From Gemmatimonadales bacterium (lineage in GTDB: Bacteria; Gemmatimonadota; Gemmatimonadetes; Gemmatimonadales; GWC2-71-9), in assembly GCA_025937755.1 (NCBI GenBank), contig JAICQR010000007.1, positions 1 to 41,773 on the forward strand: a stretch of 41,773 nucleotides of DNA, in the 5' to 3' direction. The first letter of the stretch is position 1. Every line of letters begins with the position of its first letter. This document shows, one piece after another, positions 10,005-21,367 of the stretch. The notes below the pieces were generated by a model. It did not search any database. It saw only the letters and a program-made list of their open reading frames with translations, and had not been told where the DNA came from. The position numbers and the translations under genes were made by a program.

Positions 10005-10985
10005 TCAGTTTCGTTCCGGACGCGACTCGCGCTCGTTCCAGTGCCAGGCAGCTGCCGGACCCACGAGCTCAACCCCTCCGACCCAGCGCTGAATCCCTCG
10101 CAGTTCGACGGCGTCTCGCCGTTCGTCGAGGACGCTGTCGCCCTCCGGGGTCAGGCGAAGTTCAGAGTCGCCGTAGGACCCCTTCGCTTCCGGCCAGGGA
10201 AGCCGGGACGAGAGCAGCGGCATCGGTTCCGCTGCCAGCTTCGCCACCACGTGATACAACATGATGTCGCCCATCCACGGCGCCTCTTCAGCAGCCTGGA
10301 CTGCGCCGAATGTCTCTGCCGCCGTCAGCGGGCCATCCACCAGCGCTCCCAGCACCAGCCGCTCGGTCAACGACAGACCGTCTCTCACCCACGGCAGTTC
10401 CTGCAGATGGCGGCGCATCGCCGCGGACGCGAATGGCAGCGCCAGCCGCTTCTCCTTGACGATCGCATCCAGCGCCAGCGGCTCCGGCCGCCGAAACGCA
10501 GCCCAGGTCCGTGCTCCAGCCATGAGCATTTCAACGGTGACCGGAATTCGAGACGGGAAAATGGCGCGGAGCTGCTCAGGGCCAAGACTGCCCAGCCCGA
10601 AAAAGCGCTCGCCTGTCGGGTGGGCACTCAGCGTAACGAGCGAGAGCCGGGTGGCGCCCAGGTCGCGGGTCGAGAACCAGGACAGCAGCCGGGCGAGGAT
10701 CGCCTGATCGAAGAGGTCATGTTCGAACCACAGGACTACGTCGCGGAAGTCGCGGAAGCCGGCCAGCCGGTGGTCCATCGAGGTCAGCTGGCGCCGCACG
10801 TCCTCAGCCTGTTCGCCATACGCATTGGCGATGAACCGGGAACGGACGTCATACCACGCCTCTCCCTCCACGTGGGCCGGGGTTGGGCCCTGCGCCAGCG
10901 GATCCACCCACGCCAGGTACTCGCCGGTGATGCCGGCCTCGACAAGGGTGGGCTGGATGTCGTGCCCACAGCGGATGTGCAGCAT
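10005..10985 (-). CDS. DUF1835-domain protein
   Basis: 326 aa; MLHIRCGHDIQPTLVEAGITGEYLAWVDPLAQGPTP...VLWFEHDLFDQAILARLL matches the DUF1835 pattern. Confidence 0.7.
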   Translation of the reverse strand: MLHIRCGHDIQPTLVEAGITGEYLAWVDPLAQGPTPAHVEGEAWYDVRSRFIANAYGEQAEDVRRQLTSMDHRLAGFRDFRDVVLWFEHDLFDQAILARLLSWFSTRDLGATRLSLVTLSAHPTGERFFGLGSLGPEQLRAIFPSRIPVTVEMLMAGARTWAAFRRPEPLALDAIVKEKRLALPFASAAMRRHLQELPWVRDGLSLTERLVLGALVDGPLTAAETFGAVQAAEEAPWMGDIMLYHVVAKLAAEPMPLLSSRLPWPEAKGSYGDSELRLTPEGDSVLDERRDAVELRGIQRWVGGVELVGPAAAWHWNERESRPERN

Positions 10986-11014
10986 GCGGGAGGATGCAGA
11001 GGGACGGGGAGGGC

Positions 11015-11089
11015 GTCAAGAGTCGAGAGTCGAGAGTCGAGCGTCGAGAGTGCGACGCTTCTCCCAACTCTCGACTCTGGACTCTCGAC
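11015..11089. repeat. GTCGAGA heptamer tandem repeat plus inverted copies
   Basis: GTCAAGA GTCGAGA GTCGAGA GTCGAGC GTCGAGA (11015-11049), then inverted TCTCGAC TCTGGAC TCTCGAC (11069-11089). Confidence 0.9.
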
Positions 11090-11931
11090 TAGTAAGTGAA
11101 CGTCCCGATTTCCCGGTCCGGGTTGATGGTATCGTCGCCTACAAAGCTGCCGGTAAAGACCTGGGGCTGCTGGCCGGTAAGCGCAACGGTCACCACGTAA
11201 TCGGAGCGCGGCACTCCGCAGTCGGCCCAGTAGTCCACCACGACCCGATAGTCGCCGGCGGGCGCGGTGCCGCTGGCCCAGACGATGTTTTCATTGTTGG
11301 TGTTGTCGATGTCGCAGCCAGGATTGGAGTCCAGGTCCAGCTCGCCGCCGCTGGCCGCCGTTCGGTTGGCCCAGTACACCTCTTCTCCGCTGGGATCGAA
11401 AACGTGGAGGTCCACATCACTGGCGCCAGTCCAGGAAATGCTGACCTGGACATCGCCGGTGCCCACCCGAAACATCCGCAGCGACTGCTCGCTATAGGCG
11501 CCGATCGTGGTGCCGTCGCCGACGGCGTACTGGAGGCGCTGGGTGCCGGCGGGAACGTCGGGCGACACCCCCAGCACCAGATCCGCAGTCGACGTCCCTG
11601 CCGGCAACGCCAGCAGGTAGTAGCCGTCCGCGCCTGCCATCGCGACAATCACTGTGTTGAAGGCGGCGCCGGCGTCGAGTTGTACCGCGGCGCTACCGCC
11701 ATTGACGGCGGTGCCCTGGGCCGGAACGGATGGCGCCGCGGAACCGCCAGCTTCCGGGGCCACGCCCGCTACCAGCACCGCCGAGACCGTACCGTCTGCA
11801 GTGGTGACCCGGGTAACGATATCCCCAATCGAGAACGCAGGACCCAGCAGTTCCGGGCCCTTGCAGCTCGCGATCGAGCCCGCGAGCAGCAGAGCAGATG
11901 AAACTCGGGTGGCAATGGCAATGGCCTTCAT
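11089..11931 (-). CDS. Secreted lipoprotein with DUF2135/YfaP-like domain
   Basis: Lipobox LAGSIASC; ISWTGASDVDLHVFDPSGEEVYWANRTAASGGELDLDSNPGCDIDNTNNENIVW. Confidence 0.7.
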   Translation of the reverse strand: MKAIAIATRVSSALLLAGSIASCKGPELLGPAFSIGDIVTRVTTADGTVSAVLVAGVAPEAGGSAAPSVPAQGTAVNGGSAAVQLDAGAAFNTVIVAMAGADGYYLLALPAGTSTADLVLGVSPDVPAGTQRLQYAVGDGTTIGAYSEQSLRMFRVGTGDVQVSISWTGASDVDLHVFDPSGEEVYWANRTAASGGELDLDSNPGCDIDNTNNENIVWASGTAPAGDYRVVVDYWADCGVPRSDYVVTVALTGQQPQVFTGSFVGDDTINPDREIGTFTY

Positions 11932-12151
11932 GATGCGTCCTTCCAGGGCGGCAGCGGTGAATCGACCGAATCGGGGGTGACACCGCCGATTGAAGCAACT
12001 GCCGTTCCAACGAGAAGTTGCCTGAAGCGCGTTCCCTTAAACTCATGGAGCGCTTGACGTTATCGGCAGCTGACATGACGCCTGCAGACGCTCGCCCCAA
12101 GGGTTCCTCTCGCGCTATGCGAATGTCGTTGCTGCGGTTACCTTTGCGGCC

Positions 12152-12769
12152 ATGTCGTTCCGGGTGGCGGTAGCGGCGTCGGGCAGCGGCAGCAATCTGG
12201 GCGCGCTGCTCGATGCGTTCCCTCCGCGCTCCGGCAGCCCGGTAGAAGTCGCGCTGGTGCTCAGCAACCGGCGCGAGGCCGGTGCGTTGGCCCGGGCGCG
12301 CGCGGCGGGCGTTCCTCTGCACCTGCTGGCTGATCCCGACTCGGCGGACGAATGGATCACAGCGCTCCGTGCGGTGTCGGCCGATCTTCTGGTGCTGGCG
12401 GGCTATCTGAAGCTGGTGCCGGCTGGCGTCGTCGCTGCCTACAGCGGCAGGGTGATCAATATCCATCCTGCCCTTCTTCCCGATTTCGGCGGAGCCGGCA
12501 TGTACGGCCTGCGGGTCCATCGCGCCGTCCTTGAGTCGGGCGTGCGCCGCAGCGGTGCGTCGGTGCATCTGGTGGACGAGGCCTATGACCGCGGTGCGGT
12601 GCTGGCGCGGGCCTACGTGCCGATTGAAGAGGGCGACACGCCGGAACTTCTGGCTACCCGTGTGCTCGCGGCGGAGCATCGCCTGCTCCCCGCCGTCGTC
12701 GCCGCAGCTGCGCGCGCCGGCCGGCCAGTCCCCCTGGACGACAACACTGTGGCGGAGATGACTTCGTGA
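12152..12769 (+). CDS. purN: Phosphoribosylglycinamide formyltransferase
   Basis: VAVAASGSGSNLGALLDA, NIHPALLPDFGGAGMYGLRVHRAVL, GASVHLVDEAYDRGAVLARAYVPIEEGDTPE. Confidence 0.93.
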   Translation: MSFRVAVAASGSGSNLGALLDAFPPRSGSPVEVALVLSNRREAGALARARAAGVPLHLLADPDSADEWITALRAVSADLLVLAGYLKLVPAGVVAAYSGRVINIHPALLPDFGGAGMYGLRVHRAVLESGVRRSGASVHLVDEAYDRGAVLARAYVPIEEGDTPELLATRVLAAEHRLLPAVVAAAARAGRPVPLDDNTVAEMTS

Positions 12770-16494: not shown

Positions 16495-16501
16495 GTCCTG
16501 G

Positions 16502-16572
16502 GGCGGTACGGCGGTAGGGCGATAGGTGCTCGCGCCGATGTCTCCTGGAGGCGGCGTAGCGGCCTATCGCCC
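16502..16572. repeat. GGCGGTAN octamer repeat with distal inverted copy
   Basis: GGCGGTAC GGCGGTAG GGCGATAG (16502-16525); GGGCGATAGG 16517-16526 is perfectly inverted as CCTATCGCCC 16563-16572. Confidence 0.85.
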
Positions 16573-18915: not shown

Positions 18916-19862
18916 GCGACGTCGGGCTGCACCAGGTGAGCTTCCAGCGAGACGGACGGACCGTCCTCGACGTCGAGAGTCTTCGCTTCCCCTCCCGCAG
19001 TATGACGGCGGTGCTGGGGCCCAACGGTGCCGGCAAGACCACCCTGCTGCGGCTGGTTGCCGGGCTCGAGCGCCCGGCCGCCGGTCATATCACGATCGGT
19101 GGCGAGCGGCTCAGCCGCGACGGCGCACCCCGCACCGCGCTGGCACTGTCGGACGCAGTGTTCGTTCGGGGAACCGTGCGGCGTAACCTGGATCTGGGAC
19201 TGGCGCTTCGCGATGTGCCAATGGCCGAACGCGAGATTCGGGTGCGCGATGCGGCCGACGAGTGCGGCATCACCGACCTGCTGGACCGGCCTGCGCGACA
19301 GCTATCGTCGGGCGAGGCGCAGCGGGTAAACCTCGCCCGCGCGCTTTGCTTGCGAGCCGAGGTGATCCTGCTGGACGAGCCGCTGGCCGCGGTAGACCGG
19401 CTGACGCGCCGGGCGCTGCTCGACGACCTGCCCCGGCTCCTCCGCGCTGCCGGTGCGACGGTGATTCTGGTGACCCACGATCGGGAAGAGGCATTCCGGC
19501 TGGGCGAGCGGATCGTGGTGATGGTGGGTGGTCAGGTGCGCGCCGAAGGCGCGCGCCGGGACCTGCTGATGGCGCCGCCCGATGCCGACACCGCCGGGTT
19601 GCTGGGATTTCTGCTGCTGGAAGATGCCGACGGGCCGGTGGCGGTGGCTCCCGGAGAACTGCGCGCCGGCCCCGGCGCCGGCGGGCCCCAGGTTGGCTTC
19701 ACCCTGCAGGTGGCGGATGTCCTCGACCTCGGTCGCCAGCGACTGGTGACCGGCACCATCGGCGGCCGGCCAGTGGAGCTGACGCTGCCGGAGAAGGCGC
19801 CGTCGCCCGAGAAGGGCGCGATGTTTCCGGTGCATGCCAGGTCGGTGGTGCGGCTGCGGTAG
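18912..19862 (+). CDS. tupC: Tungstate ABC transporter ATP-binding protein
   Basis: Walker [18 protein letters not shown], signature LSSGEAQRVNLARAL, Walker B VILLDEPLAAVD; ATGA overlap with the permease. Confidence 0.85.
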   Translation: MSDVGLHQVSFQRDGRTVLDVESLRFPSRSMTAVLGPNGAGKTTLLRLVAGLERPAAGHITIGGERLSRDGAPRTALALSDAVFVRGTVRRNLDLGLALRDVPMAEREIRVRDAADECGITDLLDRPARQLSSGEAQRVNLARALCLRAEVILLDEPLAAVDRLTRRALLDDLPRLLRAAGATVILVTHDREEAFRLGERIVVMVGGQVRAEGARRDLLMAPPDADTAGLLGFLLLEDADGPVAVAPGELRAGPGAGGPQVGFTLQVADVLDLGRQRLVTGTIGGRPVELTLPEKAPSPEKGAMFPVHARSVVRLR

Positions 19863-19894
19863 GGCGGAAAGGCGGTCGGGCGGTCAGGCGCTGA
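19863..19894. repeat. GGCGGTNN octamer tandem repeat
   Basis: GGCGGAAA GGCGGTCG GGCGGTCA GGCGCTGA immediately after the tupC TAG stop; GCGGTAG overlaps the stop itself. Confidence 0.8.
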
Positions 19895-21249: not shown

Positions 21250-21340
21250 GGAGTCGTGGCCGAGAGGCTGAAGGCGGCGGTTTGCTAAACCGTTATAGGG
21301 CCTAAAAGCCCTATCGAGGGTTCGAATCCCTCCGACTCCG
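21250..21340 (+). tRNA. tRNA-Ser(GCT)
   Basis: Acceptor GGAGTCG/CGACTCC, anticodon loop TTGCTAA, long variable arm TAGGGC-CTAAAA-GCCCTA, GAGGGTTCGAATCCCTC T-arm. Confidence 0.95.
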
Positions 21341-21343
21341 CTG

Positions 21344-21364
21344 TTCCCACTTCCCACTCCCCAC
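21344..21364. repeat. TTCCCAC heptamer tandem repeat
   Basis: TTCCCAC TTCCCAC TCCCCAC, then TCC-ATG of gltX. Confidence 0.85.
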
Positions 21365-21367
21365 TCC

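Follow-up and report, generated by a model that had tools for sequence, protein, structure and literature searches.

In Xanthomonas and Nostoc, dispersed 7-base repeats (GGGAATC and GGGGAYT, respectively) were reported as G-quadruplex sequences without being linked to any gene (PMC4692102), and the GTCGAGA arrays analyzed here share with them a 7-base unit, a dispersed and mostly intergenic distribution and a sense-strand position near stop codons. Xanthomonas also possesses 70-75 convergent inverted pairs (PMC4692102), which have their counterpart in the inverted convergent pairs of the genome studied here (14 '+-'). Unlike these heptamers, GTCGAGA lacks runs of G, and quadruplexes therefore cannot account for dispersed heptamers in general. 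Sporadic heptamer arrays across distant phyla, as seen here, are also known for the TAACTGA repeats of Beggiatoaceae, cyanobacteria and Bacteroidetes, for which horizontal transfer was proposed and which were read as translational sites; these repeats differ in lying mostly upstream of start codons, in one orientation, and no link was made to genes for the 23S rRNA intervening-sequence protein (PF05635, hereafter S23p) (PMC4679880). The heptanucleotide and octanucleotide sites of Geobacter metallireducens resemble the present repeats in forming several families per genome with many opposite-strand pairs, and differ in having been interpreted as regulator binding sites (PMC2700814).

A second set of described systems brings in a protein. 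The intervening sequence (IVS) of the Coxiella burnetii 23S rRNA combines an S23p ORF, preceding GACAGAT heptamers and a terminal inverted-repeat stem and is a suspected selfish element; the same source quotes an earlier proposal that rRNA IVSs are mobile elements, and gives the S23p homologue XCC0516 as a ring-shaped pentamer (PMC4990558). S23p ORF, heptamers and terminal inverted repeats are likewise the plan of the S23p elements found here, which lie between protein genes, in contrast to the Coxiella IVS, which sits inside 23S rRNA and is excised by RNase III; gene-less copies are also far more numerous here than among rRNA IVSs. REP sequences, palindromes scattered through intergenic DNA, owe their spread to a gene that is bordered by copies of the repeat and encodes a REP-associated tyrosine transposase (RAYT), a Y1 transposase. 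The S23p gene between copies of its own repeat looks similar, and the systems differ in that S23p has no known catalytic site and in that its repeats are tandem 7/8-mer arrays whose unit varies between elements.

The repeat block in the window

The window is the whole stretch of 41,773 nucleotides that was analyzed, taken from contig JAICQR010000007.1 of a Gemmatimonadales bacterium (the source genome). The block and its neighbours comprise:

11015..11051, plus strand: (GTCGAGA)5.3 array, one arm of the pair, from the sequence
11052..11066, no strand: spacer between the arms (about 18 nt), within the inner GCGTCG..CGACGC hairpin at the turn
11067..11090, minus strand: inverted (GTCGAGA)3.4 array, sense to the minus-strand gene 11089-11931 and beginning at its stop codon
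11089..11091, minus strand: TAG stop codon of the gene preceding the array, from the sequence and ORF list
11089..11931, minus strand: 280-aa ORF upstream of the array, called a lipoprotein in the earlier note, with no Pfam match
10005..10985, minus strand: 326-aa ORF downstream of the array pair, with no Pfam match

As the earlier note had described, five contiguous 7-mers stand at 11015-11049 (GTCAAGA, GTCGAGA, GTCGAGA, GTCGAGC, GTCGAGA) and three inverted ones at 11069-11089 (TCTCGAC, TCTGGAC, TCTCGAC), with the inner GCGTCG..CGACGC inverted repeat between them. The overlap it saw between the last inverted copy and the TAG stop amounts to one base, or two in the register AGTCGAG. The plus arm is antisense to both flanking genes and precedes the start of the minus-strand gene 10005-10985 by 29 nt. 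Two-unit GTCGAGA matches (≤2 mismatches) number 9 in the window against 0.51 expected, a count that 0 of 100 shuffles reached. The strong folding expected from the earlier note was also recovered, in both orientations, with predicted energies of -47.8 kcal/mol on the plus strand (z -4.3) and -51.7 on the minus strand (z -6.9). The earlier note had offered a terminator as one possible role, but a standard intrinsic terminator is not supported, given the missing T-run at the block and the absence of any terminator-like site within 10500-12500.

Two tRNAs were the only Rfam matches in the window, the block matching no known RNA family, and a literature search with the exact sequence of the block returned no match. 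The block sits between two protein genes and so, by rRNA gene context, is not an rRNA IVS, and no PF05635 gene lies between its plus and minus arrays, which leaves a derivative without the gene as the only way it could belong to an S23p element. G-quadruplex potential is absent from the GTCGAGA arrays, which contain no run of two or more Gs, and for this reason the block, judged from its letters, is grouped with dispersed heptamers in the broader sense and not with the quadruplex kind. Other arrays also occur in the window: an inverted AAGTGGG array (21344-21367) ends at the start of gene 21368, just after the tRNA at 21250-21340, and 8-mer arrays of GGGCGGTA and AAGGCGGT (16501-16526 and 19856-19890) start about 8 nt or less from plus-strand stop codons.

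Dispersed arrays, their polarity and gene ends

The source genome is a 2.32 Mb draft, 80% complete, in which the two-unit word GTCGAGAGTCGAGAG (≤1 mismatch) has 48 matches against 0 for the reversed control, in keeping with the expectation of arrays above chance. A 743-kb sample (80 contig stretches of the source genome plus the window) possessed 60 seven-mer and 52 eight-mer arrays, compared with 0 in a first-order Markov simulation, the leading units being GGGAAGT/GAGAAGT, CGGCGGCT, GAGTGTGG, GTCGAGA and GGGCGGTA/AAGGCGGT. Several 7-9-bp repeat families besides GTCGAGA are found in this genome, and the window block is one among hundreds of comparable repeat blocks there. Arrays were identified by a purpose-written detector with arbitrary thresholds and genes by our own simple codon model, in place of a standard gene caller, both applied to genomes that are mostly drafts and whose contig ends frequently fall at arrays. 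Among 60 relatives, GTCGAGAGTCGAGAG was matched in 1, on which ground vertical inheritance within the family was rejected.

Further observations concern individual families. Three source-genome contigs (C1, C9 and C28) end or start inside AAGTGGG arrays, and array copy numbers in the draft are therefore underestimated. The 29 CGGCGGCT arrays lie largely within coding sequence, their unit being stop-free in every frame. Arrays of GAGTGTGG are often followed by a common palindrome, GGAGTCTTGGGCAGTGTGGTG (L186 6987, L194 2405, L216 7338 and L229 6218), a core that possibly defines a sub-family. The spacers of two GGGCGGTA pairs (L187 19177-19225 and L255 15201-15248) hold similar hairpins, CGGGGATCC..GGATCCCCG, followed by TTT and terminator-like.

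With unit orientation assigned by a purine- or G-rich strand convention, neighbouring arrays with the same unit length and at most 100 bp apart in the source genome comprised 14 '+-' pairs, including that of the window, 0 '-+', 2 '--' and 1 '++'. Arrays were commonest in convergent intergenic regions (21 of 41), followed by tandem (44 of 185) and divergent ones (11 of 69). Within tandem regions the sense array lay a median of -0.5 nt from the stop codon, with 28 of 30 closer to the stop, and arrays positioned -2 to +8 nt from a stop codon were sense in 41 cases versus antisense in 10 (p 1.5e-5). The minus array of the window belongs to this sense set starting at the stop codon, and the outer ends of arrays that flank S23p genes likewise begin at stop codons. 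The tie to gene ends that the earlier note had suspected is therefore borne out.

Evaluating GTCGAGA in other phyla, a scan of one genome per species placed a GTCGAGA 22-mer in at least 120 stretches. Among the matches listed, many stretches belong to a handful of draft genomes from distant groups, including Acidobacteria, Thermoanaerobaculaceae, Prevotella, Limisphaerales, Myxococcales and Thiobacillus. Whole-genome counts in such distant genomes reach 151-176 (controls 0-1), and the arrays of other phyla possess the same features, with 32 '+-' pairs, 0 '-+' and starts at stop codons.

Arrays around S23p genes

Four of the five PF05635 genes of the source genome are flanked by arrays, and the array family differs each time:

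C162 (L318): PF05635 gene between plus and minus GTCGAGA arrays
C133: PF05635 gene, flanking unit GAGTGTGG
C42: PF05635 gene, flanking unit CGGCGGCT/GGCGCCTC
C91: PF05635 gene, flanking unit GGGAAGT, the contig ending on one side

The nearest solved structure to S23p is that of XCC0516 from Xanthomonas campestris (2GSC). To our knowledge, the S23/four helix bundle family, common in several phyla, has no known function.

For a wider comparison, PF05635 genes of Gemmatimonadota, Acidobacteriota and Bacteroidota were chosen blind to arrays, as the best-scoring matches. Among these, arrays lay within 300 nt of PF05635 in 28 of 30 Gemmatimonadota loci (2 of 141 control windows) and in 27 of 29 Acidobacteriota loci (8 of 141), a control that is too lenient because 300-nt windows are mostly coding; a crude ORF-based intergenic control offered too few gaps. 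Our preferred control, which used codon-model calls and only the other intergenic regions of the same loci, gave 38 of 55 PF05635-flanking regions versus 3 of 15 others in Gemmatimonadota (p 0.0009) and 37 of 53 versus 5 of 18 in Acidobacteriota (p 0.002). Arrays thus occur in 20-28% of other intergenic regions, against which the enrichment near S23p is about threefold. An inverted word of at least 12 nt was common to both PF05635 flanks in 21 of 30 Gemmatimonadota loci (control 1 of 57) and 17 of 29 Acidobacteriota loci (control 1 of 56). Strict arrays were not enriched at PF05635 in Bacteroidota (7 of 51 versus 3 of 20, intergenic control); of the flanks there, 52 of 60 (controls 23 of 120) showed their best periodicity at 7 or 8 nt. 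On plasmids, S23p loci possessed clear arrays in Nostoc, Geminocystis, Pseudanabaena and Gemmatirosa, and weak or degenerate ones in Calothrix and Azospirillum. S23p genes near cas genes were noted earlier (PMC3936711), and an S23p gene of a Pseudanabaena galeata plasmid (L442, 968-1663) lies between cas6 and cas4, accompanied by long AAAAGCT/AAAAGCC arrays, both adjoining arrays running in the same direction and inverted arrays lying further upstream.

The unit CAGGTAT surrounds one S23p gene in genome G233, which holds 235 copies of it, against 38 in a congener and 0-1 in each of ten other related genomes (controls 0). The correlation of unit with S23p ancestry was weak (Mantel r 0.17, p 0.001) and confined to close relatives; a unit is shared chiefly where protein identity exceeds 60%, and identity between the S23p of the source-genome GTCGAGA element and other GTCGAGA-like S23p proteins is no more than 32-40%. 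A strict code between protein and repeat was dropped as a strong claim, units being common mainly to S23p proteins more than about 60% identical. The source-genome families GGGCGGTA and GGCGGTCAA have no S23p gene carrying that unit in the draft assembly, and three GTCGAGA-rich drafts (G063, G065 and G067) possess S23p genes, but these are flanked by other units.

The guaB-guaA intergenic region, compared across 31 Thiobacillus genomes, revealed arrays with and without the gene. Genomes G069, G160 and G134 have a small ORF between GTCGAGA arrays, confirmed as PF05635 in G069 (L332), whereas in many other Thiobacillus CAGGGAT or TTAGGGA heptamers flank the native terminator with no S23p gene, and G161 has the terminator alone. 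For arrays that flank a terminator and enclose no S23p gene, a single insertion is no simple explanation. Across this region (L286-L316) the unit varies by species (CAGGGAT, TTAGGGA, GTCGAGA) while arrays persist on both sides of the terminator; eight genomes (L288, L294, L296, L297, L301, L304, L311 and L315) have another ORF there and no heptamer arrays.

At the same sites of Nostoc plasmids, S23p gene and arrays are present or absent as one unit, directly behind a stop codon. Site B1 is empty in four plasmids, where the stop of gene 1 is followed by 3 nt and the ATG of gene 2, and is filled in L452 and L454 by arrays and an S23p gene, the first array beginning at the stop codon of gene 1. 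One gene boundary further along the same operon, at site B2, the stop codon abuts the next ATG in L453, and L443 has a different S23p gene with different arrays. Site A, between traM and a hypothetical gene, is filled in L445 and L451, empty in L448 and L450, and occupied in L449 by arrays without an S23p gene. In L457 an S23p gene is itself broken by an S23p-less array pair with a different interior, an insert with 114 matching places in 47 cyanobacterial plasmid records. Neither this nested insertion nor the family B junctions had a clear target-site duplication, and the several short border repeats seen there are of uncertain assignment to the target. Mobile units and their position at stop codons are demonstrated by these filled and empty sites, which are Nostoc ones, away from the window copy.

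Origin of the window block and competing explanations

We consider it probable, at roughly 0.62, that the window block belongs to a small mobile element akin to rRNA intervening sequences and is one of its S23p-less, non-autonomous copies. Counting against this are the lack of a clear target-site duplication, the repeat families without a matching S23p gene (in draft assemblies), an enrichment only about threefold over other intergenic regions, its absence for strict arrays in Bacteroidota, the terminator-flanking arrays of Thiobacillus species that have no S23p gene and the weak co-inheritance of unit and S23p. The inverted arrays would be the ends of this element, and S23p, a small helical protein which we infer to be the driver of movement, may recognize the hairpin formed by the arrays, in either DNA or RNA, and may promote spread in cis and trans via a putative nuclease or polymerase; we know of no transposition enzyme or active site for S23p. 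Insertions would persist mainly at gene ends, and arrays would begin at stop codons because insertions survive mainly there. The window copy would then fold into a long hairpin just after the upstream gene's stop codon, and whatever it did to the mRNA would be a by-product; a 3'-end hairpin function is possible as a secondary role.

The position of sense arrays at stop codons, their richness in convergent regions (21 of 41) and their strong folds would also be expected of a functional gene-end structure, in which a post-stop hairpin or purine-rich tract stabilizes the 3' end, terminates transcription or keeps antisense transcripts out, and S23p genes lie between arrays merely as small genes of such regions; the Thiobacillus arrays, which flank a conserved terminator at one site despite unit changes, agree with it as well. 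We nevertheless hold this to be unlikely, since the window block has no U-tract, many arrays are single and unable to form a long stem, one array pair interrupts a gene, and in Nostoc arrays and S23p gene were gained together, even at a site without intergenic space.

Slippage is harder still to reconcile with these data. Under it, 7-8-bp units expand by polymerase slippage and are purged from coding sequence, thus accumulating in short intergenic regions, and inverted partners arise by template switching. Such a process would not carry a single unit to dozens of loci per genome, cannot yield '+-' pairs alone (14:0 and 32:0), predicts no tie to one gene family and sits poorly with the G233 unit being near absent from ten related genomes. 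In many bacterial genomes heptanucleotides outnumber all other long simple repeats, with polymerase slippage proposed as the cause (Mrazek 2007, as cited in PMC4679880), and Coxiella strains do differ in copy number by whole units (PMC4990558); we still judge the idea improbable, already weakened as it is by the polarity, the S23p link and the joint gain in Nostoc. The earlier note's variant, a slippage product later inverted, leaves the dispersal, the 14:0 and 32:0 polarity and the Nostoc gain of arrays with gene unexplained. Slightly less probable again are regulator binding sites spread by selection, an idea put forward for the TAACTGA repeats of Beggiatoaceae and the paired heptamers of Geobacter, with S23p as a possible regulator that autoregulates its own gene. 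Opposite-strand heptanucleotide pairs in Geobacter were called global regulator binding sites (PMC2700814) and S23p genes do lie within their own arrays, but the usual position is the gene end and not the promoter, several unrelated families share one genome, and arrays and gene were gained as a unit.

Beyond the window copy, the mobile-element reading raises, as a tentative proposal to which we give somewhat less than even odds, a widespread and unrecognised class of elements with inverted 7/8-bp array ends, S23p as agent, insertion behind stop codons and no recognised transposase. Neither dispersed heptamer arrays nor rRNA IVS elements are new in themselves, and connecting them appears to be new; the open-access literature, to which our search was confined with subscription journals outside its scope, held no paper connecting S23p genes with heptamer arrays between protein genes, and novelty is uncertain to that extent. 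If true, the new class would cover together the heptamer repeats of many phyla, the rRNA intervening sequences and the S23/four helix bundle family. Reports of dispersed heptamers go back decades (Calothrix, Xanthomonas, Nostoc, Beggiatoaceae, Geobacter), offering differing explanations and no agent, and their tie to S23p would provide a testable role for both and place rRNA intervening sequences in the same class. The Nostoc plasmids with filled and empty sites would be an easy system in which to test a mobile element that has no known transposase.
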